Made by a program: the position numbers and the translations under genes. This document shows, piece by piece, positions 1 through 15,293 of a DNA stretch of 24,617 nucleotides. Origin of the DNA: a virus; the IMG/VR virus record IMGVR_UViG_3300031672_000011, positions 1 to 24,617 of that record. One strand, 5' to 3'. The notes under the pieces were generated by a model. That model searched no databases, was not told where the DNA came from, and was given only the letters and a program-made list of their open reading frames with translations. The stretch's first letter is position 1. Each line of letters opens with the position of its first letter.

Positions 1-36
1 CCCCGAGTCAGCAGCCTGCTCCCGTTCGGCCTCACT

Positions 37-250
37 ATCCGCCCCACGCGCGTGGGGGTCACCCCGCAGCCATGGCCACGAAGCCTGACCTGAATGCAAT
101 CCGCCCCCACACGGGTGGGGGCCACCCGGTTCAGCTGCCGTCGAAAAAGACAGCCCACTGATCCGCCCCACACGCGTGGGGGTCACCCCACCGCATCGCA
201 GCGACGTTCATCGTCTGAGTCGATCCGCCCCACACGCGTGGGGGTTATCC
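37..250 (+). CRISPR. Type I-E-like CRISPR array 1 (4 repeats, no cas genes in window)
   Basis: Four imperfect repeats begin at 37, 99, 161 and 223, so the period is exactly 62 bp. Each repeat is about 28-29 nt and reads ATCCGCCCCAC, a 3-4 nt loop, GTGGGGG, then TCACCC. The CCCCAC/GTGGGG hairpin in the middle is the form known from actinobacterial type I-E repeats. The three complete spacers (about 65-98, 127-160 and 189-222) differ from each other and are less GC-rich than their surroundings. The last repeat changes its 3' end (TTATCC in place of TCACCC), which usually marks the leader-distal end, so the array probably reads on the plus strand and continues left of the window. It ends about 35 bp from the stop of a minus-strand tail gene. 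No cas gene, leader or acquisition gene is visible. The calls rest on spacing and hairpins only; no spacer target is known. Confidence 0.75.
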
Positions 251-284
251 ATTCATCCAACCCCCTCGGTCCGGCGGGGCGCGG

Positions 285-947
285 CTAGTCGGAGATGGGC
301 TGCGAGCCGTCCGTGAGCAGCCATCCGAGCGCGTAGAAGATGATCGTGGCGGCCGTCATCGACGGGGTGCCCCCGGTCGATCCGGGGTTGACCGTGGGGT
401 AGAAGTAGGCCTGCGCCGTGAGTGCCACCGACGTGGCCGGGGGCACCGCCAGGCGGCGCGTGAGGCTCATCGTCACGCTGTCGACGTTGCCCGTACCGGA
501 CCACGCCCCCTGCTGGTGCAGGGTCTTGTACACCGGCAGCGCGCCCGCCGCCGGGACGGGGCCGCTCGCGGGGCCGATCCACGGCGAGACCTTCACCGTC
601 ACGTCCGCGGGCATCAGCAGCTTGCAGGTGACCTCGTACGCCACCACCGCCTGCATCGGGAAGCACAGGCTCGGGTTGCCGACCGTGTCCCCCGGCGGAA
701 ACGTGATCGGGTTGGTGTAGGCGCCGAGCGGCAGGCTCACCGCGGCGCTCTGCTGGTAGAGGGCGGCGGACTCCAGCGGCTCGCGCGGGGGCACCCACAG
801 CCCGAGCGACGCGTCCGTGCGCAGGTCGGTGCCAGCCGACGGCCCGCACACGTACGGCCACACCCCGGGCTGCGCCCCGGTGAACTCCAGCTCGTTGAGC
901 GCGCCGACGGAGAACTCCGGGCCCAGGGCGCAGATCGGCGACGGCAT
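285..947 (-). CDS. Tail/surface protein of the CTGPEF paralogue family, copy 7
   Basis: This 220-residue protein is the last gene of the minus-strand virion cluster. Its start ATG at 947 follows a GGGAG ribosome site. The N-terminus (ICALGPEF, then GVWPY, then LRTDASLGLWVPP) matches the shared pattern of six other proteins in this window: Cys-x-GPEF, then AWP, then LR-x-DP-x-x-GLWV. The middle holds the NPSLCFPMQAVV motif also found in the 216- and 240-residue paralogues. The C-terminal half has the RRLAVPPATSVALTAQAYFY strand pattern, as expected for a beta-sandwich. The family is known to me only as unnamed virion or minor tail proteins in Streptomyces phages, so a fibre, tip or decoration role is inferred from position. 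It is separated by 16 bp from copy 6 and is followed directly by CRISPR array 1. Confidence 0.75.
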   Translation of the reverse strand: MPSPICALGPEFSVGALNELEFTGAQPGVWPYVCGPSAGTDLRTDASLGLWVPPREPLESAALYQQSAAVSLPLGAYTNPITFPPGDTVGNPSLCFPMQAVVAYEVTCKLLMPADVTVKVSPWIGPASGPVPAAGALPVYKTLHQQGAWSGTGNVDSVTMSLTRRLAVPPATSVALTAQAYFYPTVNPGSTGGTPSMTAATIIFYALGWLLTDGSQPISD

Positions 948-963
948 AGGGGGCTCCCGGGGG

Positions 964-1647
964 TCAGATGGCGGGGCTGGTGTTCCCGCCGCGGCGGGTG
1001 TCGAATCCGTAGATCAGGGTCTCGATCACCAGGCGGGTGATCACGGGCAGCGGCGCCCCGGTGTTGGCCTGGAACGCGGTGACCGCCTGCCACTGGAAGA
1101 AGTTCGGGGCCGCCCCGGCGGCGCGGTACATGAACCGTTGCAGGGTGTCGGTACGCGCCATCGCGTACACGGTCCCGGTGGGCGCCAGGCCGTCCGCCCA
1201 GCCCTTGAACCGGCCGTGCTCGATGTACGCGGACGGCGGCGGCATCGCCGGGGCAGGGGTGGTGGACGCCGAGAGCACCCAGGCCAGGCCCGTGTTCTGC
1301 GGGACCTGCGCGTTGATGGTGAACGTGGTCACGGTGGCGAACTGCTGGGCGGCGCAGCCCGAGGGGCTCGCCGGGATCGCGGTCCCCACGATCTCCAGGC
1401 CGTTGAGGGCCCAGGTTCCGAAGTTCACCGGGATGGAGATCGGTCCGGAGTCCTGGCGCTGGTAGAAGGCCAGGAAGTCGACCGGGGGCGCCCACACGCC
1501 GACGGCCGGGTCGCGGTACAGGCCGCTGGCGGCCGCGGGCGTGCACCCGGCGCCGCTGCCGCCGGGCCATGCGCCGGGCCGGGTGTTGCGAAAGCGCAGG
1601 CCGCCGTCGGCAGGCGACGTGTTCATCTCGGGCCCGGTGCAGGTCAC
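964..1647 (-). CDS. Tail/surface protein of the CTGPEF paralogue family, copy 6
   Basis: This 227-residue protein has the family N-terminus (VTCTGPEM, then RPGAWPG, then GLYRDPAVGVWAPP). GTG at 1647 was chosen because it places CTGPE at the same distance from the start as in the paralogues; the longer frame back to 1809 would run through the divergent promoter region. The upstream ribosome site is poor. Sequences resembling -10 boxes (TATACC, GATACC) lie 8-20 bp before the GTG on the minus strand, so a short or leaderless transcript is possible but unproven. The C-terminal half diverges more than in other copies. The gene and copy 7 form a two-gene unit cut off from the rest of the tail cluster by the plus-strand island. 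A virion surface role is inferred. Confidence 0.72.
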   Translation of the reverse strand: MTCTGPEMNTSPADGGLRFRNTRPGAWPGGSGAGCTPAAASGLYRDPAVGVWAPPVDFLAFYQRQDSGPISIPVNFGTWALNGLEIVGTAIPASPSGCAAQQFATVTTFTINAQVPQNTGLAWVLSASTTPAPAMPPPSAYIEHGRFKGWADGLAPTGTVYAMARTDTLQRFMYRAAGAAPNFFQWQAVTAFQANTGAPLPVITRLVIETLIYGFDTRRGGNTSPAI

Positions 1648-1702
1648 TGCGCCAGGGTATCGGGTATAGACCGGTTTGGGAGGTTTCCATCGCACCGGCG
1701 GC

Positions 1703-1746
1703 TTGACGTCATCCATAGAATAAGGTATAGTCTCCGCGTGGGTGGA
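1703..1746 (+). promoter_or_regulatory. Promoter with near-consensus -35/-10 and downstream GGGTGGA box
   Basis: TTGACG (1703-1708), a 17-bp spacer and TATAGT (1726-1731) give a strong sigma-70/HrdB-type promoter. GGGTGGA (1740-1746) follows 8 bp after the -10, close to the expected start of transcription. The same arrangement with GGGCGAG occurs at three other promoters in this window. It should drive the small-gene operon starting at 1815 and, by read-through, CRISPR-like array 2. Confidence 0.7.
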
Positions 1747-1814
1747 CCCGGCCCGCGGCGCTGGCCGACGGCGTCCCGCGCATCTCCACACCGCCAACCA
1801 GAAAGACATCTGAC

Positions 1815-2111
1815 ATGGGCGTTTCCGTACGGGAGTTCGAAAACCTCGCCGCCGCGCTTCGCGCCGTCGTCGAGTCCGGGCCCGCGCCGAAGGCGGAGCG
1901 CCGCCGACCCGGCACTGCGCGCCGCGCCCGCATCAGCACGAACGCGGGCTATGAGCCCGACGGGTGTTTCTGCTGCGCGCTGGGCGAGCGGGCGCCGTGC
2001 CCCTGGTGCGAGTCGCTGCGCGAGTGCGGCGCATGTGGCGAGTTCATACCCGAGGACGACATGGACGGCCACGTGCACGAGCAGCACCCGGGCGTCGGGG
2101 CGGCCGCCTGA
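1815..2111 (+). CDS. Small Cys-rich zinc-finger-like protein (98 aa)
   Basis: This is the first gene of a plus-strand operon, 84 bp downstream of a strong promoter. The N-terminal third is a basic, Arg-rich helix-forming segment. The C-terminal half contains CFCC, CPWC and then CGAC followed 10 residues later by HVHEQH, a C2H2-type finger spacing (C-x2-C-x10-H-x3-H). Nucleic-acid or protein binding through zinc is therefore likely, but no named family is recognised. The ribosome site is modest (AGAAAG about 9 bp before the ATG). The stop overlaps the next start as TGATG. Its place between two CRISPR-like arrays makes a regulatory or counter-defence role conceivable, with no direct evidence. 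Confidence 0.7.
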   Translation: MGVSVREFENLAAALRAVVESGPAPKAERRRPGTARRARISTNAGYEPDGCFCCALGERAPCPWCESLRECGACGEFIPEDDMDGHVHEQHPGVGAAA

Positions 2112-2215
2112 TGGCCGCCTACTTCGACGGCCGGGCCCGCGCGCTCCATGCCCGCACGGCCCTGGGCTGGCGCGGCCCCGCCGTCTACCGGGCCGCCCGG
2201 CCCGCAGCGCGGTGA
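2111..2215 (+). CDS. Very small basic protein (34 aa)
   Basis: This short reading frame begins with an ATG inside the TGATG overlap with the zinc-finger gene and ends inside the GTGA overlap with the next gene. The product is basic and Arg/Ala-rich (MAAYFDGRARALHARTAL at the start) and could form one amphipathic helix. The overlaps on both sides argue for translational coupling and for a real gene. The sequence itself offers no family clue, and the frame could also serve only to carry ribosomes to the next start. Confidence 0.45.
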   Translation: MAAYFDGRARALHARTALGWRGPAVYRAARPAAR

Positions 2216-2238
2216 GCGCGGTGAGCGCGGTGAGCGCC
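2212..2238 (+). repeat. Three tandem GTGAGCGC(G/C) 9-mers at a gene start
   Basis: The unit occurs at 2212, 2221 and 2230, the last with one change. Each unit starts with an in-frame GTG and encodes Val-Ser-Ala, so the following gene has several possible start codons. Slippage would add or remove three residues without breaking the frame. Confidence 0.8.
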
Positions 2239-2571
2239 GTGCCGGTGTGCTGGGTGGTGACCGAGGCCACCGGCGACGGCGCCCAGTGGTGGGTGCAGGA
2301 CGCCGACGCGGACAGCGTGGTCCTGGCACCGGCGGCGCCCGGCGCCGCGACGAGCACGCCGCGCCCGCTGCCGCAGTTCGGGATGGCACACCTGGCCCTG
2401 TCCGAGACGGCGCGCCGGGCCGCGTGGGCGATGTGCGCGCTGATGGCGTTCTACGCCGTGCGGGTGCACGTGGTCCCGGGCGGCCCGGACCCCGCCGCCG
2501 ACCCGCACTGGCGCGAGCGCATGGACCTGGTCACGGTGCTGCTCGACTTCGGTGCGGGGGTGGCGCGGTGA
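2212..2571 (+). CDS. Unknown phage protein (119 aa)
   Basis: This is the third gene of the plus-strand operon. The start is ambiguous because three 9-bp repeats each offer an in-frame GTG; the first overlaps the preceding stop as GTGA. After the repeated Val-Ser-Ala N-terminus comes a likely beta-rich segment (VCWVVTEATGDGAQWWVQDADADSVVLAP). A helical part follows (ALSETARRAAWAMCALMAFYAVRVHVV) and could be a weak membrane segment or a buried helix. The end reads MDLVTVLLDFGAGVAR. No family is recognised. The stop overlaps the next start as GTGA. Confidence 0.6.
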   Translation: MSAVSAVSAVPVCWVVTEATGDGAQWWVQDADADSVVLAPAAPGAATSTPRPLPQFGMAHLALSETARRAAWAMCALMAFYAVRVHVVPGGPDPAADPHWRERMDLVTVLLDFGAGVAR

Positions 2572-2726
2572 CCCCGGGCGCGCCGTACAGCCGCAGGCGG
2601 CTGTGCCCGGGGTGCGGCAAGCCAATCGTGCCGGGCGCCCGCGCTCCGGCCGCCGGGCGCGCGGCCGCGTACTGCGTGTGCCCGCCGCGCGCCGCAGCCC
2701 GGCGCGCACCGCGCACGAGGCGATAA
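2568..2726 (+). CDS. Small zinc-ribbon-like protein (52 aa)
   Basis: This last gene of the operon starts at a GTG overlapping the previous stop (GTGA). It encodes CPGCGKPIV followed about 20 residues later by YCVCPPR, a two-knuckle C-x2-C plus C-x-C pattern typical of tiny zinc ribbons, and ends in a strongly basic Arg/Ala tail. Nucleic-acid binding is plausible. CRISPR-like array 2 begins about 45 bp after the stop with no obvious terminator between, so both may share one transcript. Confidence 0.6.
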   Translation: MTPGAPYSRRRLCPGCGKPIVPGARAPAAGRAAAYCVCPPRAAARRAPRTRR

Positions 2727-2769
2727 TGCGGGCATGCGGACCGCGCGCGGCGCGCACCACATCCCCCGC

Positions 2770-2982
2770 CGCGCAGCCCCGCACGCGGGGGGTCTTCCCG
2801 TCGCAGGCGCCCGCCCCCGCGCCGCCGAGGCCGCCCCACGTGGGTGGGGGTCTTCCGGTGAACGTCTCGGGGCCCGGGCCGCGCGGCGCGCCCGCCCCAC
2901 CCGCGTGGGGGTGAGCCCGCAGACCGCTGCCGCCCGATGCCGGTACCGCGCGGCTCCCCGCGCGCGCGGGGGTCCCGCGCAG
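2770..2982 (+). CRISPR. Degenerate CRISPR-like array 2 (4 hairpin units)
   Basis: The 2727-3130 gap holds no convincing gene. It contains four hairpins whose left arms begin at about 2777 (CCCCGC), 2834 (CCCCAC), 2895 (CCCCAC) and 2956 (CCCCGC), each answered by GTGGGG or GCGGGG. Steps are 57, 61 and 61 bp; 61 is the classic type I-E period. The segments after the stems (GTCTTCCC, GTCTTCCG, GTGAGCCC, GTCCCGC) resemble the array 1 handle GTCACCC, and the orientation is the same. The repeats differ from each other far more than in array 1, and the first unit has a shortened loop, so this array is decayed or diverged. The promoter at 3012 follows. Chance formation of GC-rich hairpins cannot be fully excluded. 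Confidence 0.55.
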
Positions 2983-3011
2983 CTCCCGCAGGCACCGGCA
3001 CCTCCGGAACA

Positions 3012-3055
3012 TAGACACGGTAGCGTCGATAGTGTAGAGTTTCCTTGTGGGCGAG
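3012..3055 (+). promoter_or_regulatory. Promoter of the TAGAGT/GGGCGAG type
   Basis: TAGACA (3012-3017), a 17-bp spacer and TAGAGT (3035-3040) are followed after 8 bp by GGGCGAG (3049-3055). The arrangement matches two minus-strand promoters near 23.57 and 24.13 kb and the plus-strand promoter at 1703. It should drive the two-gene unit 3131-4023. Confidence 0.65.
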
Positions 3056-3130
3056 AACCGCCGCACCCCTAGCTCAGAGCGCACAGCCGCACACGCGTAT
3101 CCGCACCCCGCCCCGCCGAAAGGACACCTC

Positions 3131-3523
3131 ATGCCCGTCGCCGTCATGGAGCTGCGCCTCACCATCGACCTGGCACGCGGCCCCGCGTCCGGGTTCACCG
3201 CCACCTGCACCGAGCTCGGCGCCACCGCAACCGGACCCACCAGGGGCAAGGCTTTCACCGCCTGCCGGGAGCTGTGCCGCAGGAAGATCGCTGCGGCCGT
3301 CCCGGGCCACCCGGTAGCCGACCGGCCGCACGAGCCGGTCATACTCGCCGGGCCCCGCGAGTACACGTGCATCGCCTGCGAGGGCACATGCATGATCGAC
3401 CCAGGTTCCGGCACGTCGGTCGCCGCCGCGAGGCTCGCCCACGTCTACTCCCGCTCCGGCCACGCCCCACGCTGGGTCAACAGCCTCACCGGCGACCCCC
3501 TCGACGACGAGACCACCCCATGA
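3131..3523 (+). CDS. Unknown protein with weakly HicB-like N-terminus and a CxxC (130 aa)
   Basis: ATG at 3131 follows GAAAGGA at good spacing and lies about 75 bp below a promoter. Residues 5-55 (ELRLTIDLARG, GFTATCTELGATATG, then a Lys/Arg/Cys-rich helix) recall the strand-strand-helix layout of HicB-type partial RNase-H folds, but the match is only by eye and no HicA partner is adjacent. The C-terminal half has YTCIACEGTC, a possible zinc knuckle, then a His-containing segment. The last codons overlap the next gene as ATGA. Function unknown; an accessory, early-type role is suggested by its own promoter and its orientation opposite to the virion genes. Confidence 0.65.
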   Translation: MPVAVMELRLTIDLARGPASGFTATCTELGATATGPTRGKAFTACRELCRRKIAAAVPGHPVADRPHEPVILAGPREYTCIACEGTCMIDPGSGTSVAAARLAHVYSRSGHAPRWVNSLTGDPLDDETTP

Positions 3524-4023
3524 CGCCCCCGGACCCCGCCCCGGACCTCGCCGCCCTCCAGGACGCGCTGCGCGACCGGCTGCGCGAGCTGGCACCGGCG
3601 CTCGAGGCGGCCACCCTGGCCGAGACCGGGCACACCGCCCGCCCCTACGGCGTGGCGCTGCGCTTCCCCGGCGGCCAGAGCGCCTACATCCAGATCATGC
3701 GCGCGGGCGTGCCCGGCGCCGACCGCCCGGACGCGCCCGGCGACCGGGCGCCGAACCCGGCGCCCGTGTTCGCGCCCGGCCACGCGCAGGTGCGCACCGC
3801 GGACCTCGAGACCCTGCTGGCCGCCGCCCTCGCGACCCTGCCCGCACCGCTGTGCGCCCAGGGCACCCCGATCTCCCCCACCGCCCGGCCCGGCGGCTTC
3901 CCCTTCGGGGTACGCGCCCGCTACCCCGGCGGCACGGCGCTGTGGCTGCTGCCCTTCCTGCTGCTGGCCCCCGGCGAGCAACCGGCCAAGCGCCTGCAAC
4001 ACCTCTACCCCGCCGCGTTCTAG
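3520..4023 (+). CDS. Unknown protein with an internal duplication (167 aa)
   Basis: This gene starts at the ATGA overlap with its neighbour and is therefore translationally coupled to it. An N-terminal amphipathic helix (LAALQDALRDRLRELAPALEAATLAE) precedes two similar segments: RPYGVALRFPGGQSAYIQI near residue 45 and FPFGVRARYPGGTALWLLPF near residue 130. The shared core is P-[YF]-GV-x-x-R-[FY]-PGG. This suggests a duplicated beta-hairpin. No family is recognised. Its stop codon lies in a CTAG shared with the stop of the converging minus-strand gene, so the two genes meet with no spacer. Confidence 0.65.
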   Translation: MTPPDPAPDLAALQDALRDRLRELAPALEAATLAETGHTARPYGVALRFPGGQSAYIQIMRAGVPGADRPDAPGDRAPNPAPVFAPGHAQVRTADLETLLAAALATLPAPLCAQGTPISPTARPGGFPFGVRARYPGGTALWLLPFLLLAPGEQPAKRLQHLYPAAF

Positions 4024-4262
4024 GACAACGGCGGCACGGCCAGCGCGCGCCCGGCGCCCGGCCCCGCACGGCCGTCCGGCTTTGCCTGGACGCTGAACGT
4101 CTTGATGCGCCCGCGCCAGTTCACCGTCACCCTCGGCGCCACCGCGCCGTCGATGCCGCGCGCCCTGGCCAGCTCGATCAGGTCGCCCAGCTGGTCGAGC
4201 GTCATGCCCGCCCCCGGGTCCAGGGCGTCCTCGTGCAGGTCGCTGCGGTCGCGCCGTGCCAT
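4020..4262 (-). CDS. Small phage protein at the end of the tail cluster (80 aa)
   Basis: ATG at 4262 is chosen because GGACGG lies about 9 bp upstream; ATG at 4268 or GTG at 4271 would add 2-3 residues. The protein has a charged N-terminus (MARRDRSDLHEDALD), a helical middle (MTLDQLGDLIELARARGI), then a short beta stretch (VTVNWRGRIKTFSVQAK). No family is recognised. It follows copy 5 of the surface protein family by 14 bp and ends head-on against the plus-strand gene, sharing a CTAG for both stops. Confidence 0.6.
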   Translation of the reverse strand: MARRDRSDLHEDALDPGAGMTLDQLGDLIELARARGIDGAVAPRVTVNWRGRIKTFSVQAKPDGRAGPGAGRALAVPPLS

Positions 4263-4276
4263 GCGCATCACCCGTC

Positions 4277-4936
4277 CTATCCCACCGGCCCCGGATCGAG
4301 CAGGTACGTCATCCCGTACAGGCCCACCCACCAGTCTCTCACCTGCGCCTGGAGGCCCGCGCCACCGGCCGCCGCGTGCACCCCGTGCCGCACCGTGAGC
4401 GCGGCCTGGTCGGCGATGTCCACCACCGCCTGCACCGGCAGATGCGACGAGCGGTGCCACACCACCTGCGCCGCAGGGGCCTCGGAGCTCACCGGCCCCC
4501 ACACCGTGCCCCCCGGCTGCGCCCCGGGCGCGGGCACATAGGCGACGTTGCCCCACTGCTCGATCCACGTCACCGCGTTGACCGACAGGGTGACGCCGAA
4601 CTCGACCCAGCCGGTGAACGCCATCTGCTGGTAGGCGCTGGGGTTGGTCAGGTACCACGGCTCCAGCGCGAACTCGTACACCCCGCCCGGGCTCGGGTCG
4701 ACCGCCAGCAGCGTGCTGTCGGCGCCGCGCTGGACCTGGGTGACGGGGGTCGCGCCGACCTGCGGGATCCACGGCCCCCACTGCGGGTCCACCCGCAGGC
4801 CGTTCGCGGCCCGCATCGACGCGGGCACCCCCGCGCCGGTGGCGAACGGCCACGCCACCGCGGGCAGGGCGCGCAGCGAGAGCCGGGACTCGGCGTCGGT
4901 CGCGAACTCGCCGCCGGTGCAGATGATCGCCGTCAC
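4277..4936 (-). CDS. Tail/surface protein of the CTGPEF paralogue family, copy 5
   Basis: GTG at 4936 follows a strong AGGAGG that overlaps the preceding stop codon. The 219-residue product begins VTAIICTGGEFATDAESRL and continues with AVAWPF, then NGLRVDPQWGPWIP. The middle (LTNPSAYQQMAFTGWVEFGV, EQWGNVAYVPAPG) aligns by eye with copy 1 (the 242-residue protein at 15.3 kb) and copy 4. The C-terminus ends in GLYGMTYLLDPGPVG, matching the AGFLLDP and VAWLIDP ends of copies 1 and 4. These three form a subgroup. A virion surface or tail-tip role is inferred from the cluster. Confidence 0.75.
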   Translation of the reverse strand: MTAIICTGGEFATDAESRLSLRALPAVAWPFATGAGVPASMRAANGLRVDPQWGPWIPQVGATPVTQVQRGADSTLLAVDPSPGGVYEFALEPWYLTNPSAYQQMAFTGWVEFGVTLSVNAVTWIEQWGNVAYVPAPGAQPGGTVWGPVSSEAPAAQVVWHRSSHLPVQAVVDIADQAALTVRHGVHAAAGGAGLQAQVRDWWVGLYGMTYLLDPGPVG

Positions 4937-4947
4937 GCGCGGGCCTC

Positions 4948-5637
4948 CTAGAGCGGGGGGGTCGGGTCGATCAGCCACGCGACGCCGGTGAGCGTCGCCG
5001 CCCACGACGCGACCTGCAGCGGCAGCGGCGTCGAGGGGGCCGCGTCCAGCACGTTCTTGACCCCGAGGGTCACGGTGACCGACGCCTGGGCCGGAAGCGG
5101 CCCGGTCCACAGCCCGAGCCCGACCTTCGCCTGGGCGCGCCACGCGAACGACGCCGCCCCCGCCGCAGCCTGCGCCGGGGTGACCGTGATGCCCGGCGAC
5201 GTACCGTCCAGGGCCTCGTACGGGGTCGAGACGGCCGGGCCGCCGGGATACGGCGCGTACTGGAGCCGCCCCCACAGCTCGGCGTTCGCCGACCCGCGGG
5301 TGTAGACCAGCGCGTCGAACTCCACATCGCCGAGGAACGCCGTGTTCTGCGCGGCCGAGAGCGCCGGGAAGGCGAGCGCGGCGTCCAGCAGCACGGCCAG
5401 GGTCCCGGCGGGCACGGCCGCGGACTCGATCGAGGCCAGGGCGACGCTCACCGGCCGCGGGTCGCACTGCGCCGCCCACGCCCCGTTGGCGGCGTCCATC
5501 CGCAGCCCGTTGATCCACGGGCCCGGCCCGGCGAGGGCGGCGGGCAGCGGCATCCACCGGGCCGCGGTCACCCGCAGCGACCCGGTCGAGTCGAACCCGA
5601 GGTCCGGGCCCGTGCACAGGGACGCGCCGCCGCCCAT
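4948..5637 (-). CDS. Tail/surface protein of the CTGPEF paralogue family, copy 4
   Basis: This 229-residue protein starts MGGGASLCTGPDLGFDSTG at ATG 5637, immediately downstream of copy 3. It carries the family landmarks NGLRMDAANGAW, NTAFLGDVEFDA, WGRLQYAPYPGG, then ASVTVTLGVKNV and the GVAWLIDP end. It groups with copies 1 and 5 by its C-terminal motif. No signal peptide or membrane segment is apparent. The stop lies 11 bp from the next start. Confidence 0.75.
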   Translation of the reverse strand: MGGGASLCTGPDLGFDSTGSLRVTAARWMPLPAALAGPGPWINGLRMDAANGAWAAQCDPRPVSVALASIESAAVPAGTLAVLLDAALAFPALSAAQNTAFLGDVEFDALVYTRGSANAELWGRLQYAPYPGGPAVSTPYEALDGTSPGITVTPAQAAAGAASFAWRAQAKVGLGLWTGPLPAQASVTVTLGVKNVLDAAPSTPLPLQVASWAATLTGVAWLIDPTPPL

Positions 5638-5640
5638 CGC

Positions 5641-6363
5641 TCACCCGTCCGAGACCGGCGCGGCGCAGGGCCAGCCCTGCGCGAACACCTCGGCCGACCA
5701 CGCGGTGACGTACCCGGGGTAGCTCGGCCGTACGAACGTGGGGCTGCCCGGCGGGGTCGGCGGCCCGACCGCGTTGAGGTACAGGGCCTGGGCGAGGGTG
5801 AGGGTGGCCGTGCCGCCCGCCGGGACCGAGACCCGGCGCGCGAGGGTGACCGGCAGCGCGAACGGCACCGTGCCCGGGGCCGCGTCGTTCAGGTGCGCGG
5901 TCCCGTACCGCGGCAGCACGTCGGGCGCGGGCGCGGCGCCCTGGCCGAGCCATGCGGCCATCAGGACGGCCTGGGTGTCGAACAGGACCAGGGCGGCGCG
6001 CAGCGTCGCGGACACGACCGCCTGGAGCGGCGTGCACAGCGGGTTCGCCAGGACGAATGTGCGCACCGGCGTGTTCCCGGTCCACGCGTCGTACGCCATG
6101 CGGTAGGTCGTGCCGGGCGGGGAGACCTGGTAGGACGACCAGGTCGGCAGCAGGGTCTGTACCGTCCACAGGCCGGTGTCGGGGTCTTTCGCCAGGCCGT
6201 TGGCCGCGCCGATCGGGCACGGGTAGGGCCACGCGGAGGACGGCAGCTGCACCGGGGTGCCGTGCACGTCGTAGGACATGGGGCCGGACGCGCTGTTGGG
6301 CTGCCGGGCGGTGAGGCAGCCCGAGCCGTCCAGCGCCATCTCGGGGCCGGTGCAGCCGGTCAC
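5641..6363 (-). CDS. Tail/surface protein of the CTGPEF paralogue family, copy 3
   Basis: GTG at 6363 overlaps the stop of copy 2 (GTGA), giving a 240-residue product that begins VTGCTGPEMALDGSGCL. It continues with SAWPYPC, then NGLAKDPDTGLWTV. The core holds FVLANPLCTPLQAVVSATLR, corresponding to the NPS-x-C-x-PMQ motif of copies 2 and 7. The RRVSVPAGGTATLTLAQALY segment is the shared C-terminal strand. The frame is open far upstream, but the paralogue alignment and the GTGA overlap fix the start. Role inferred as in the other copies. Confidence 0.75.
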   Translation of the reverse strand: MTGCTGPEMALDGSGCLTARQPNSASGPMSYDVHGTPVQLPSSAWPYPCPIGAANGLAKDPDTGLWTVQTLLPTWSSYQVSPPGTTYRMAYDAWTGNTPVRTFVLANPLCTPLQAVVSATLRAALVLFDTQAVLMAAWLGQGAAPAPDVLPRYGTAHLNDAAPGTVPFALPVTLARRVSVPAGGTATLTLAQALYLNAVGPPTPPGSPTFVRPSYPGYVTAWSAEVFAQGWPCAAPVSDG

Positions 6364-7010
6364 GCGACCAGGTCCGTGACCGGGGCGAGCTGGGTGTAGC
6401 CGAAGCCCGTGGTCTCCACCCCGCCGTCGATCAGGCTCGGGGCGGCGGTGGCGCCGGAGACGAGGTTGACGCAGTACAGCGACATGTACCGGTGCAGGGT
6501 GACGGACGCGCCCGGGGCCAGGGCCAGGCGGCGGATGAGGGTCGCGCTGGTCGCGAACTCGGCGGCGCCGTCGGACCAGCAGTGGTACGAGTCGTAGGTG
6601 CTGATCGCCAGGTCGGGGGGCCGGGTCGCGGTGGACGGGCCGACCCACAGCTTCTCCAGGAGATAGGTGTGCAGGGGCATCCCGCCGTGGCAGCGGAACG
6701 TATGGGTCAGCACAACCTGCATGGGCAGGCACGCGCTCGGGTTGGTCACCACCATGTCGGGCACGCCGGTGGAGGTGTAGGAGTTGAGGACCAGCGGCGT
6801 CGAGGCGACGAACGGCTGCACGTCGTGGAACGCGACGAGGTTGAGCGGGTCGACCCAGAGGCCGAGCGCCGGGTCCTTGCGCAGGCCCGAGGCGCTCGAG
6901 GGCGGGCAGGAGGTGCCGTAGGGCCACGCCCCGGGCTGCGTGTTGCGCACGATCAGGGCGTTGGTCGCCGGGTCGGTGGCGAACTCCGGGCCGATGCACA
7001 CGGTATTCAC
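6360..7010 (-). CDS. Tail/surface protein of the CTGPEF paralogue family, copy 2
   Basis: This 216-residue product begins MNTVCIGPEFATDPATNAL and includes GAWPYGTSCPP, SGLRKDPALGLWVDP, NPSACLPMQVVLTHTFRC and RRLALAPGASVTLHRYMSLY. GTG 7010 is used as the start; a second GTG three codons later is also possible. A 55-bp gap upstream separates it from the His-rich gene and is relatively AT-rich (TGTAGAAC, GACATAGG), so it may hold a weak promoter. It opens a run of four consecutive family members. Confidence 0.75.
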   Translation of the reverse strand: MNTVCIGPEFATDPATNALIVRNTQPGAWPYGTSCPPSSASGLRKDPALGLWVDPLNLVAFHDVQPFVASTPLVLNSYTSTGVPDMVVTNPSACLPMQVVLTHTFRCHGGMPLHTYLLEKLWVGPSTATRPPDLAISTYDSYHCWSDGAAEFATSATLIRRLALAPGASVTLHRYMSLYCVNLVSGATAAPSLIDGGVETTGFGYTQLAPVTDLVA

Positions 7011-7065
7011 ATATCGCCCCTATGTCGGTTTCGTCCTGTTCTGTTCTACAGTAGCCGCGGCCCGC

Positions 7066-7422
7066 TCAGCCCTGCGGCAGCGAGGTCGGCAGGCCGCCGA
7101 TCAGCGCGAGCAGCGCCGGGCTGCTCTGCCCCTCGCCCGGCGCGCGCGGCGCGGTCGCGTACGGCACCCGCACCGTGCTCGGCGGCGGCGCCACCGGCGC
7201 CTGCGCGAGGACCATCTCGTCCCCGGTCAGCGCGTAGGTGGCCGTCAGGTGCCCCTGCGCGGTCATCGCCAGCGTCCACAGCCCGATGGCCGAGATGTTC
7301 TGCGGCGCGGTGTTGTTCGCGTCCAGCTCGCCGCGCTGGCGCAGCTCGTGCGTCAGCGCGTTGCGCATGGGCACGTGCAGGCGCCGGTGGTGGTTGCGGT
7401 GGTTGTGGTCGTGGTGCGCCAC
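7066..7422 (-). CDS. Small minor tail protein with His-rich N-terminus (118 aa)
   Basis: This gene starts at GTG 7422, 3 bp after the stop of the tail-hub gene. Residues 1-16 are very rich in His, Asn and Arg (MAHHDHNHRNHHRRLH), a possible metal-binding patch. Residues 20-75 look folded, and the remainder is Pro/Ala-rich linker ending in ALLALIGGLPTSLPQG. The position between the tail hub and the surface protein run suggests a tail-tip accessory protein. No specific family is recognised. Confidence 0.65.
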   Translation of the reverse strand: MAHHDHNHRNHHRRLHVPMRNALTHELRQRGELDANNTAPQNISAIGLWTLAMTAQGHLTATYALTGDEMVLAQAPVAPPPSTVRVPYATAPRAPGEGQSSPALLALIGGLPTSLPQG

Positions 7423-14564: not shown

Positions 14565-15293
14565 TCATCCTTGGGCAATTGGGTCGAGCAGGAACCCGGC
14601 GCCCCACAGGTCCCACGACCAGCCCTGGACCTGCGCGGCCGTGGTCCCCCCGCTCTCGCCCACGTTCTTGAGCCCGAGCACGGCGGAGACGACCGCCGTG
14701 GCGCCGGGCGCGAGCGTGAGCACCACGGCGCGCCGTACGCGCAGGTGCACGATCGACTGCACCTTCGGGGACGCGGTGTGGATCGCGTCGAGATACGAGC
14801 CGAGGTTGGGCCACCCCGACCCGGGGTAGGCGAGCGAGCCCCACATCTCCAGCCAGTCCGAGTCGCCGCTGTTCACGTTCTGCCGCCATTCGCCCCAGCC
14901 GACGAAGCCCATCGACAGCGGCGACGGGTTGCTGACACTGACCGCGCTGAGGGCCGTGGACGGCACGGTCCCGGGGCCCGAGGGGTTGGCGAACGGGGGG
15001 TCCGCGGTGCTGGGGAACCACACCGGCGACCCGGTGGCCACCAGGACCGGAGCGGAGAACGCGCCGCCCTGGGACGAGAGGTGCACCGGCAGCGGCGAGG
15101 CGGCACCGGCCGGGGCGGGCAGGGCCGCCGGGACGACCCACAGCCCGGCGGCGGGGTCGTAGCGCAGGGCGTTGGCCGAGTCGATCTGCGCGCCGGGCCA
15201 CGCGCACACCGCCGGGCGGGTGTTGGCCAGGGTCAGCTCGCCCAGCGGCCCGTGGGTGAACGCCGGGCTGATACACACGTCGGGCACGGGCAC
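14565..15293 (-). CDS. Tail/surface protein of the CTGPEF paralogue family, copy 1 (242 aa)
   Basis: GTG 15293 follows GGAGAG and places the start just before DVCISPAFTHGPLGEL, the family N-terminus. Further landmarks are TRPAVCAWPGA, NALRYDPAAGLWVVP, SNPSPLSMGFVGWGEW, EMWGSLAYPG, RRAVVLTLAPGATAVVSAVL and the end GAGFLLDPIAQG. This copy is detached from its six relatives and sits between the tail completion protein and the chaperones, normally the place of the major tail protein. That position suggests it could decorate the tail tube or neck. It groups with copies 4 and 5. Confidence 0.75.
   Translation of the reverse strand: MPVPDVCISPAFTHGPLGELTLANTRPAVCAWPGAQIDSANALRYDPAAGLWVVPAALPAPAGAASPLPVHLSSQGGAFSAPVLVATGSPVWFPSTADPPFANPSGPGTVPSTALSAVSVSNPSPLSMGFVGWGEWRQNVNSGDSDWLEMWGSLAYPGSGWPNLGSYLDAIHTASPKVQSIVHLRVRRAVVLTLAPGATAVVSAVLGLKNVGESGGTTAAQVQGWSWDLWGAGFLLDPIAQG

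Follow-up and report, generated by a model that had tools for sequence, protein, structure and literature searches.

Two cas-less, type I-E-like CRISPR arrays in an actinophage-like genome as candidate guides or decoys for a host CRISPR system

Virus-borne arrays of clustered regularly interspaced short palindromic repeats (CRISPR) that come without cas genes are best studied in archaeal viruses, such as SPV1 and SPV2, which carry mini-arrays in two regions of their genomes (Medvedeva et al. 2019, PMC6858448; review PMC11656645). Phages are also known to encode mimics of host repeats, again without cas genes, in the form of RNA anti-CRISPRs (Racrs) and solitary repeat units (SRUs; Camara-Wilpert et al. 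2023, PMC10651486). Here we describe two arrays, A and B, in the IMG/VR record IMGVR_UViG_3300031672_000011, the whole of which (24,617 bp, linear, 72.8% GC) constitutes the window of this study. Like the SPV1/SPV2-type mini-arrays, they are intergenic, cas-less, present as two loci per genome and composed of host-type repeats; unlike them, they are type I-E-like, belong to an actinophage-like genome, have at least three spacers per array instead of one or two, and show variable repeats. They thus join the virus-borne cas-less arrays with a doubled layout and repeats that vary, array B at least lying inside a viral genome between phage paralogues; however, their membership is incomplete because neither an identical host repeat nor a target was found. 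In contrast to the solitary Racr/SRU units, they form two groups of four units separated by spacer-length gaps. An actinophage example of a virus-borne cas-less array was not found in the open-access literature, a weak negative.

The stem motif CCCCRC-N2-5-GYGGGG occurs at only eight sites in the window, four in array A (42, 105, 166 and 228) and four in array B (2777, 2834, 2895 and 2956), with the expectation for motif pairs 55-64 bp apart being 0.05 per Mb in a first-order Markov simulation of the local composition. A covariance model (R1), built from 25 Streptomycetaceae host type I-E repeats and none from the window, ranks the eight units ahead of every other full-length match on the + strand, seven at E values of 1.1e-9 to 7.1e-5 and the first unit of array B (B1) at 0.06; the next independent match in the 24.6 kb has an E value of 0.34. 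The host repeats in the model derive mostly from Cse1-bearing genomes, several of which have Cse1 at a distance of a few kb, or from a plasmid of Kitasatospora purpeofusca; among the source genomes, G002/LUP30 gave no Cse1 match and an Embleya genome was left out of the Cse1 test. The stems, being palindromic, are echoed on the minus strand at scores below those of their + strand partners (37.7 bits on the + strand versus 19.4 on the other), bearing out an earlier, sequence-only reading of the locus, which had recognized in array A a directional array with type I-E-like hairpins.

The geometry is in agreement with this assignment. Starts are spaced 61-62 bp apart in five of the six intervals and five of the six spacers are 32-33 nt long, the exception on both counts being B1 (57 bp/28 nt); such regular spacing and spacer length point to type I-E. 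Likewise, the units combine a 28-29 nt repeat, a short GC hairpin and a 3' handle of about 8 nt, most weakly so in B1, with spacers that are unique. Stem identity is 0.95 as against 0.63 elsewhere, with the loop, 5' end and handle diverging, and all 42 of the 42 stem pairs in seven units are formed, figures biased by the units having been found via the stem. Judged by sequence, both arrays are type I-E-like and in + orientation. PADLOC, NCBIfam and Cas6e-family searches recovered no cas gene in the record, in line with the sequence-only reading.

In array A, the starts of the four repeats are exactly 62 bp apart, as first described, and the mean repeat identity is 0.885 (Table 1). The repeats are 29 nt long save for the second, in which one extra C is offset by a 32-nt spacer; the stem is one of 6 bp (CCCCAC/GTGGGG), with 8 bp in the second repeat according to its fold. 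All spacers are unique, with limits within 1-2 nt of those originally given, and the terminal repeat is indeed changed, its 3' end being GTTATCCA rather than GTCACCCC. With its spacing, spacer length, hairpin and handle, array A has what a working type I-E guide array needs. Closure at four repeats is improbable, because positions 1-4 correspond to a repeat end and 5-36 are spacer-sized and in register; it probably continues past the left contig end, the contig having likely broken inside a fifth repeat. Hence, its earlier designation as a mini-array is not established, as the array may be longer. On the other side, 33 bp separate it from the stop (285) of the minus-strand gene 285-947. This adjacency had been rightly noted, but the neighbor is a late-operon paralogue without assigned function, for which the earlier designation as a tail gene is not established. 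An ATG-started open frame of ~29 codons (72-161, +) crosses spacer A1, repeat A2 and spacer A2, possibly by chance; spacer A1 may be derived from the start of a gene.

Array B, which was missed in the sequence-only reading, lies at about 2772-2979 on the same strand as A, with four hairpin repeats at core spacings of 57, 61 and 61 bp. Its repeats are more divergent, with a mean identity of 0.655 for B2-B4, in which the stems are at 0.89 as against 0.49 elsewhere. B2 and B3 differ at eight positions, none of them in the stem (chance 0.006 were these evenly spread, though biased by the units having been found via the stem), and the model match of B4 spans the stem and the beginning of the handle. 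This retention of the hairpins but not of the handles suggests, as far as the letters go, a closer fit to Cas6e processing or binding than to exact Cascade assembly. Array B is flanked by paralogous late genes on the left (285-947 and 964-1647) and on the right (4277-7001), and sits among small orphan genes grouped on the + strand; hence, it is phage DNA rather than host flank. The notion of a virus-borne array, originally advanced for A, thus holds for B at least; array A may be bounded by either phage or host DNA, as the contig breaks inside it.

Table 1. Features of the two arrays and their surroundings in the window.
Feature	Coordinates	Strand	Evidence and remarks
Putative 3' end (CCCC) of a further array A repeat, cut by contig end	1..4	+	Equals last 4 nt of A1/A3; would be in register with a 32-nt spacer
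Putative spacer A0, 32 nt	5..36	+	Length would suit the 61-bp period
Repeat A1, ATCCGCCCCACGCGCGTGGGGGTCACCCC	37..65	+	Host I-E model 37.7 bits, E 1.1e-9
Spacer A1, 33 nt	66..98	+	No protospacer match
Repeat A2, 30 nt, one extra C, 8-bp stem	99..128	+	22.2 bits, E 7e-5 (7.1e-5); fold
Spacer A2, 32 nt	129..160	+	No protospacer match
Repeat A3, ATCCGCCCCACACGCGTGGGGGTCACCCC	161..189	+	35.8 bits, E 4e-9
Spacer A3, 33 nt	190..222	+	No protospacer match; the best, 26/33 in L206, taken as chance
Terminal repeat A4, with changed 3' handle GTTATCCA	223..251	+	25.3 bits, E 8e-6
Late-operon gene	285..947	-	Paralogue of 964-1647, 5641-6363, 6360-7001 and others; window blastp E down to 1e-26
Predicted sigma-70-like promoter TTGACG-17-TATAGT, reading towards array B	1703..1731	+	Consensus scan
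Gene for a small Cys-rich protein, heading the + strand group that ends at array B	1815..2111	+	No PHROGs, PADLOC or NCBIfam family
Small gene, same group	2212..2571	+	Its stop lies within a short frame, 2568-2726
Repeat B1, shortened loop, weakest unit	2772..2799	+	12.8 bits, E 0.06; in line with B2-B4
Spacer B1, 28 nt	2801..2828	+	
Repeat B2, GGCCGCCCCACGTGGGTGGGGGTCTTCCG	2829..2857	+	29.4 bits, E 4e-7
Spacer B2, 32 nt	2858..2889	+	
Repeat B3, GCCCGCCCCACCCGCGTGGGGGTGAGCCC	2890..2918	+	32.7 bits, E 4e-8
Spacer B3, 32 nt	2919..2950	+	
Repeat B4, fifth stem pair G-C for A-U, both sides changed	2951..2979	+	24.1 bits, E 2e-5
Promoter-like site TAGACA-17-TAGAGT, directly behind array B, for genes 3131-4023	3012..3040	+	Consensus scan

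Type I-E arrays of Streptomycetaceae hosts (e.g., NZ_CP108563; HM190) share with the window 29-nt repeats, a TCC(T/G)-CCCC-stem-GGGGGTC frame and a 61-bp period. On the Kitasatospora purpeofusca plasmid NZ_CP108563, an array of a close-variant repeat adjoins cas3, casA and casB, and the commonest host repeat, GTCCGCCCCGCGCGAGCGGGGGTCAGCCG, found near Cse1, has the flank TCCG, the frame and GGGGGTCA in common with array A. A stem pair that is G-C in this host repeat is A-U in array A, and both forms occur among the units of B and among the hosts. The host arrays differ from those of the window in being next to or near cas genes. Some of them have highly variable repeats, as in the window: those of Streptomyces sp. 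HM190 (L063:1600-2800), G204 (L144/L196) and Streptomyces sp. LUP30 (L044) have mean identities of 0.74-0.82, and in HM190 and G204 (0.74-0.75) Cse1 lies a few kb from the variable array. Because such host arrays, about as variable, occur near Cse1, repeat variation alone is no proof of decay.

As the repeats resemble those of host type I-E systems and cas genes are absent, the phage probably borrows or jams the CRISPR machinery of its host. Of the two, we favor the former, at a probability of roughly 0.45: the arrays would be phage-borne, cas-less type I-E arrays processed by the host Cas6e, furnishing guides that redirect the host Cascade at rival phages or other mobile elements. Briefly, array B would probably be transcribed from the predicted promoter at 1703-1731 as the 3'-terminal part of an operon of small genes, in which 1815-2111, 2212-2571 and the short overlapping frame that runs to 2726 would precede it. 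The hairpins in the transcripts of both arrays might then be cut by the host's Cas6e, upon which the 32-33 nt spacer RNAs would load into its type I-E Cascade, to be turned by the phage against its competitors. Such a role as guides is more likely to apply to array A especially, and that of decoys, considered below, to array B.

Several observations weigh against the arrays furnishing guides. Competing phages had been proposed as targets in the sequence-only reading, but the searches with the spacers gave no protospacer: none for array A in INPHARED, PLSDB and 395 Streptomycetaceae genomes, and none for array B in INPHARED or, among the best 15 matches listed, in PLSDB. Seed scans of IMG/VR with spacers A1-A3 returned ten contigs; the best match, that of spacer A3 to contig L206 at 26/33 (7/33 mismatches), was judged to be chance. 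A PLSDB match of array B in Kitasatospora is a host array and not a target, and the inspected genome matches of spacer regions have at least nine mismatches, or none within 11, and fall in unrelated genes. These negatives are weak evidence because the phage has no close relative in the searched collections. Further, while the comparison with host repeats proposed earlier reveals a shared frame, no sampled host has the same repeat: the nearest collected ones differ at 4-6 of the 29 positions, with none closer than 4/29, and an exact counterpart is absent from GTDB contigs (strict pattern) and from 395 class genomes (at one mismatch or fewer). The handles of array B are strongly variable, and its spacers, at 78-89% GC, are no different from the GC-rich phage background. 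Finally, no leader was identified, with the upstream side of array A falling outside the record; for array B, the predicted promoter lies 1 kb upstream, with none nearer by consensus scan.

The alternative that survives best, possible yet tentative, is that the hairpins are decoys, which mimic host type I-E repeats and soak up Cas6e or Cascade subunits in the manner of Racrs, thereby blocking host immunity irrespective of the spacers. Consistent with this, the hairpin is kept while the handles are loose, above all in B, protospacers are wanting, and array B follows small orphan genes behind a strong predicted promoter; moreover, two type I-E Racrs have proved functional (PMC10651486) and candidate single I-E-like units are present in other IMG/VR contigs (L176, L178). 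However, the 61-62 bp period and the spacers of 32-33 nt, largely retained in both arrays, are not needed by decoys. Racrs often, though not always, have a predicted promoter immediately before them; for array B, the consensus scan gave none within about 1 kb. A particular version of this idea, of which we are rather doubtful, sees in array B, and perhaps A, a multi-copy RNA anti-CRISPR, i.e., a series of type I-E repeat mimics differing in loop and handle that would be expressed together with the small orphan genes and would tie up the Cas6e or Cascade of Streptomyces-like hosts with diverse type I-E repeats of their own.

It is unlikely that array A, as distinct from B, belongs to the host as a CRISPR array next to which a prophage has integrated, with the contig running from the one into the other; such a situation would be compatible with any function of B. 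Array A does leave the contig in an apparent repeat, is more regular than B, and has its phage location confirmed by no relative; but B, with repeats of the same kind, is enclosed by paralogous late genes within the phage region, only 33 bp intervene between A and the last late gene, and no integrase was recognized among the scanned proteins. Slightly less probable again is that both are remnants which recombination brought in from a host or plasmid, now decaying and functionless. While the degeneracy of B (B2-B4 mean identity 0.66, one 28-nt spacer) and the lack of targets would be expected of such remnants, the stems are intact, one of them with a two-sided pair change; the eight differences between B2 and B3 are all outside the stem (with the bias of units found via it); and the compact phage genome has two separate arrays within 3 kb. 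That the units are ordinary structural hairpins, for example tandem terminators closing operons, is very improbable despite their GC-richness and the position of A at the late operon's 3' end, for there are no T tracts or terminator-like sites, on which ground the terminators were rejected, and the period, orientation and host-model scores are CRISPR-like. These rival readings partly overlap, since A and B may differ.

With regard to the phage itself, the record encodes a major head protein, a major tail protein, a tape measure and a head-tail adaptor, with distant relatives in Microbacterium, Gordonia, Mycobacterium and Streptomyces phages; in the INPHARED relatives, the capsid is only about 33% and the tape measure about 28% identical. 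Given these distant actinophage relatives, the host is probably a high-GC actinomycete, Streptomyces-like by the sequence. A search of IMG/VR with two proteins found no relatives of the phage, and in Streptomycetaceae loci with 31-35% tail-protein identity, the short stretches that were read contain no hairpin of this kind. Seven late-operon proteins, 213-242 aa in length and paralogous to one another (285-1647, 4277-7001 and 14565-15293 on the minus strand), have no PHROG family, and gene 285-947 has no Pfam or PHROG family; likewise, the small genes scanned near array B have no PHROG, PADLOC or NCBIfam family. In 1-4300, two sigma-70-like promoters were found, both on the + strand, versus 0.1 expected, and Rfam yielded chance-level matches only on 1-3200.

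Comparable elements are encountered in other viral contigs. An unrelated 99-kb virus (L005; IMGVR_UViG_3300037504_000682) has at 5073-5290 an array of CTATTCCCCACACGCGTGGGGGTGAACCG resembling those of the window in its four units, 61-62 bp period (62/62/61 bp) and degenerate last repeat; it differs in belonging to another phage and host group, with its repeat being 1 nt from host type I-E repeats of Anaerolineales and other metagenome-assembled genomes. This record gave no Cse1 or Cas6e-family match. Single I-E-like units, putative RNA anti-CRISPRs, were observed at L178:4278-4306, L176:7822-7850 (-) and L128:7306-7334 (-), with further ones at L130:872-895, L131:5361-5379 and L177:13004-13026. 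A different situation is seen in the 77.5-kb record IMGVR_UViG_3300042504_002519 (G399; L192:1-10000, L193:1-4001), which, besides an integrase and an FtsK-like protein, codes for a reduced type I-E module comprising Cas6e (L192:4823-5506), Cas7e (5603-6838) and Cas5e (6810-7277), with no Cse1 in the record by Pfam. Its about 50 I-E-like hairpins form several clusters, mostly with 37-45 or 64-77 bp spacing rather than the usual 61 bp; from its sequence, it looks like a mobile-element derivative of type I-E with unorthodox arrays.

If the reading of two type I-E-like arrays in one phage is true, the guide and the decoy ideas could be compared within a single genome, and this in hosts some of whose own type I-E arrays have unusually variable repeats.
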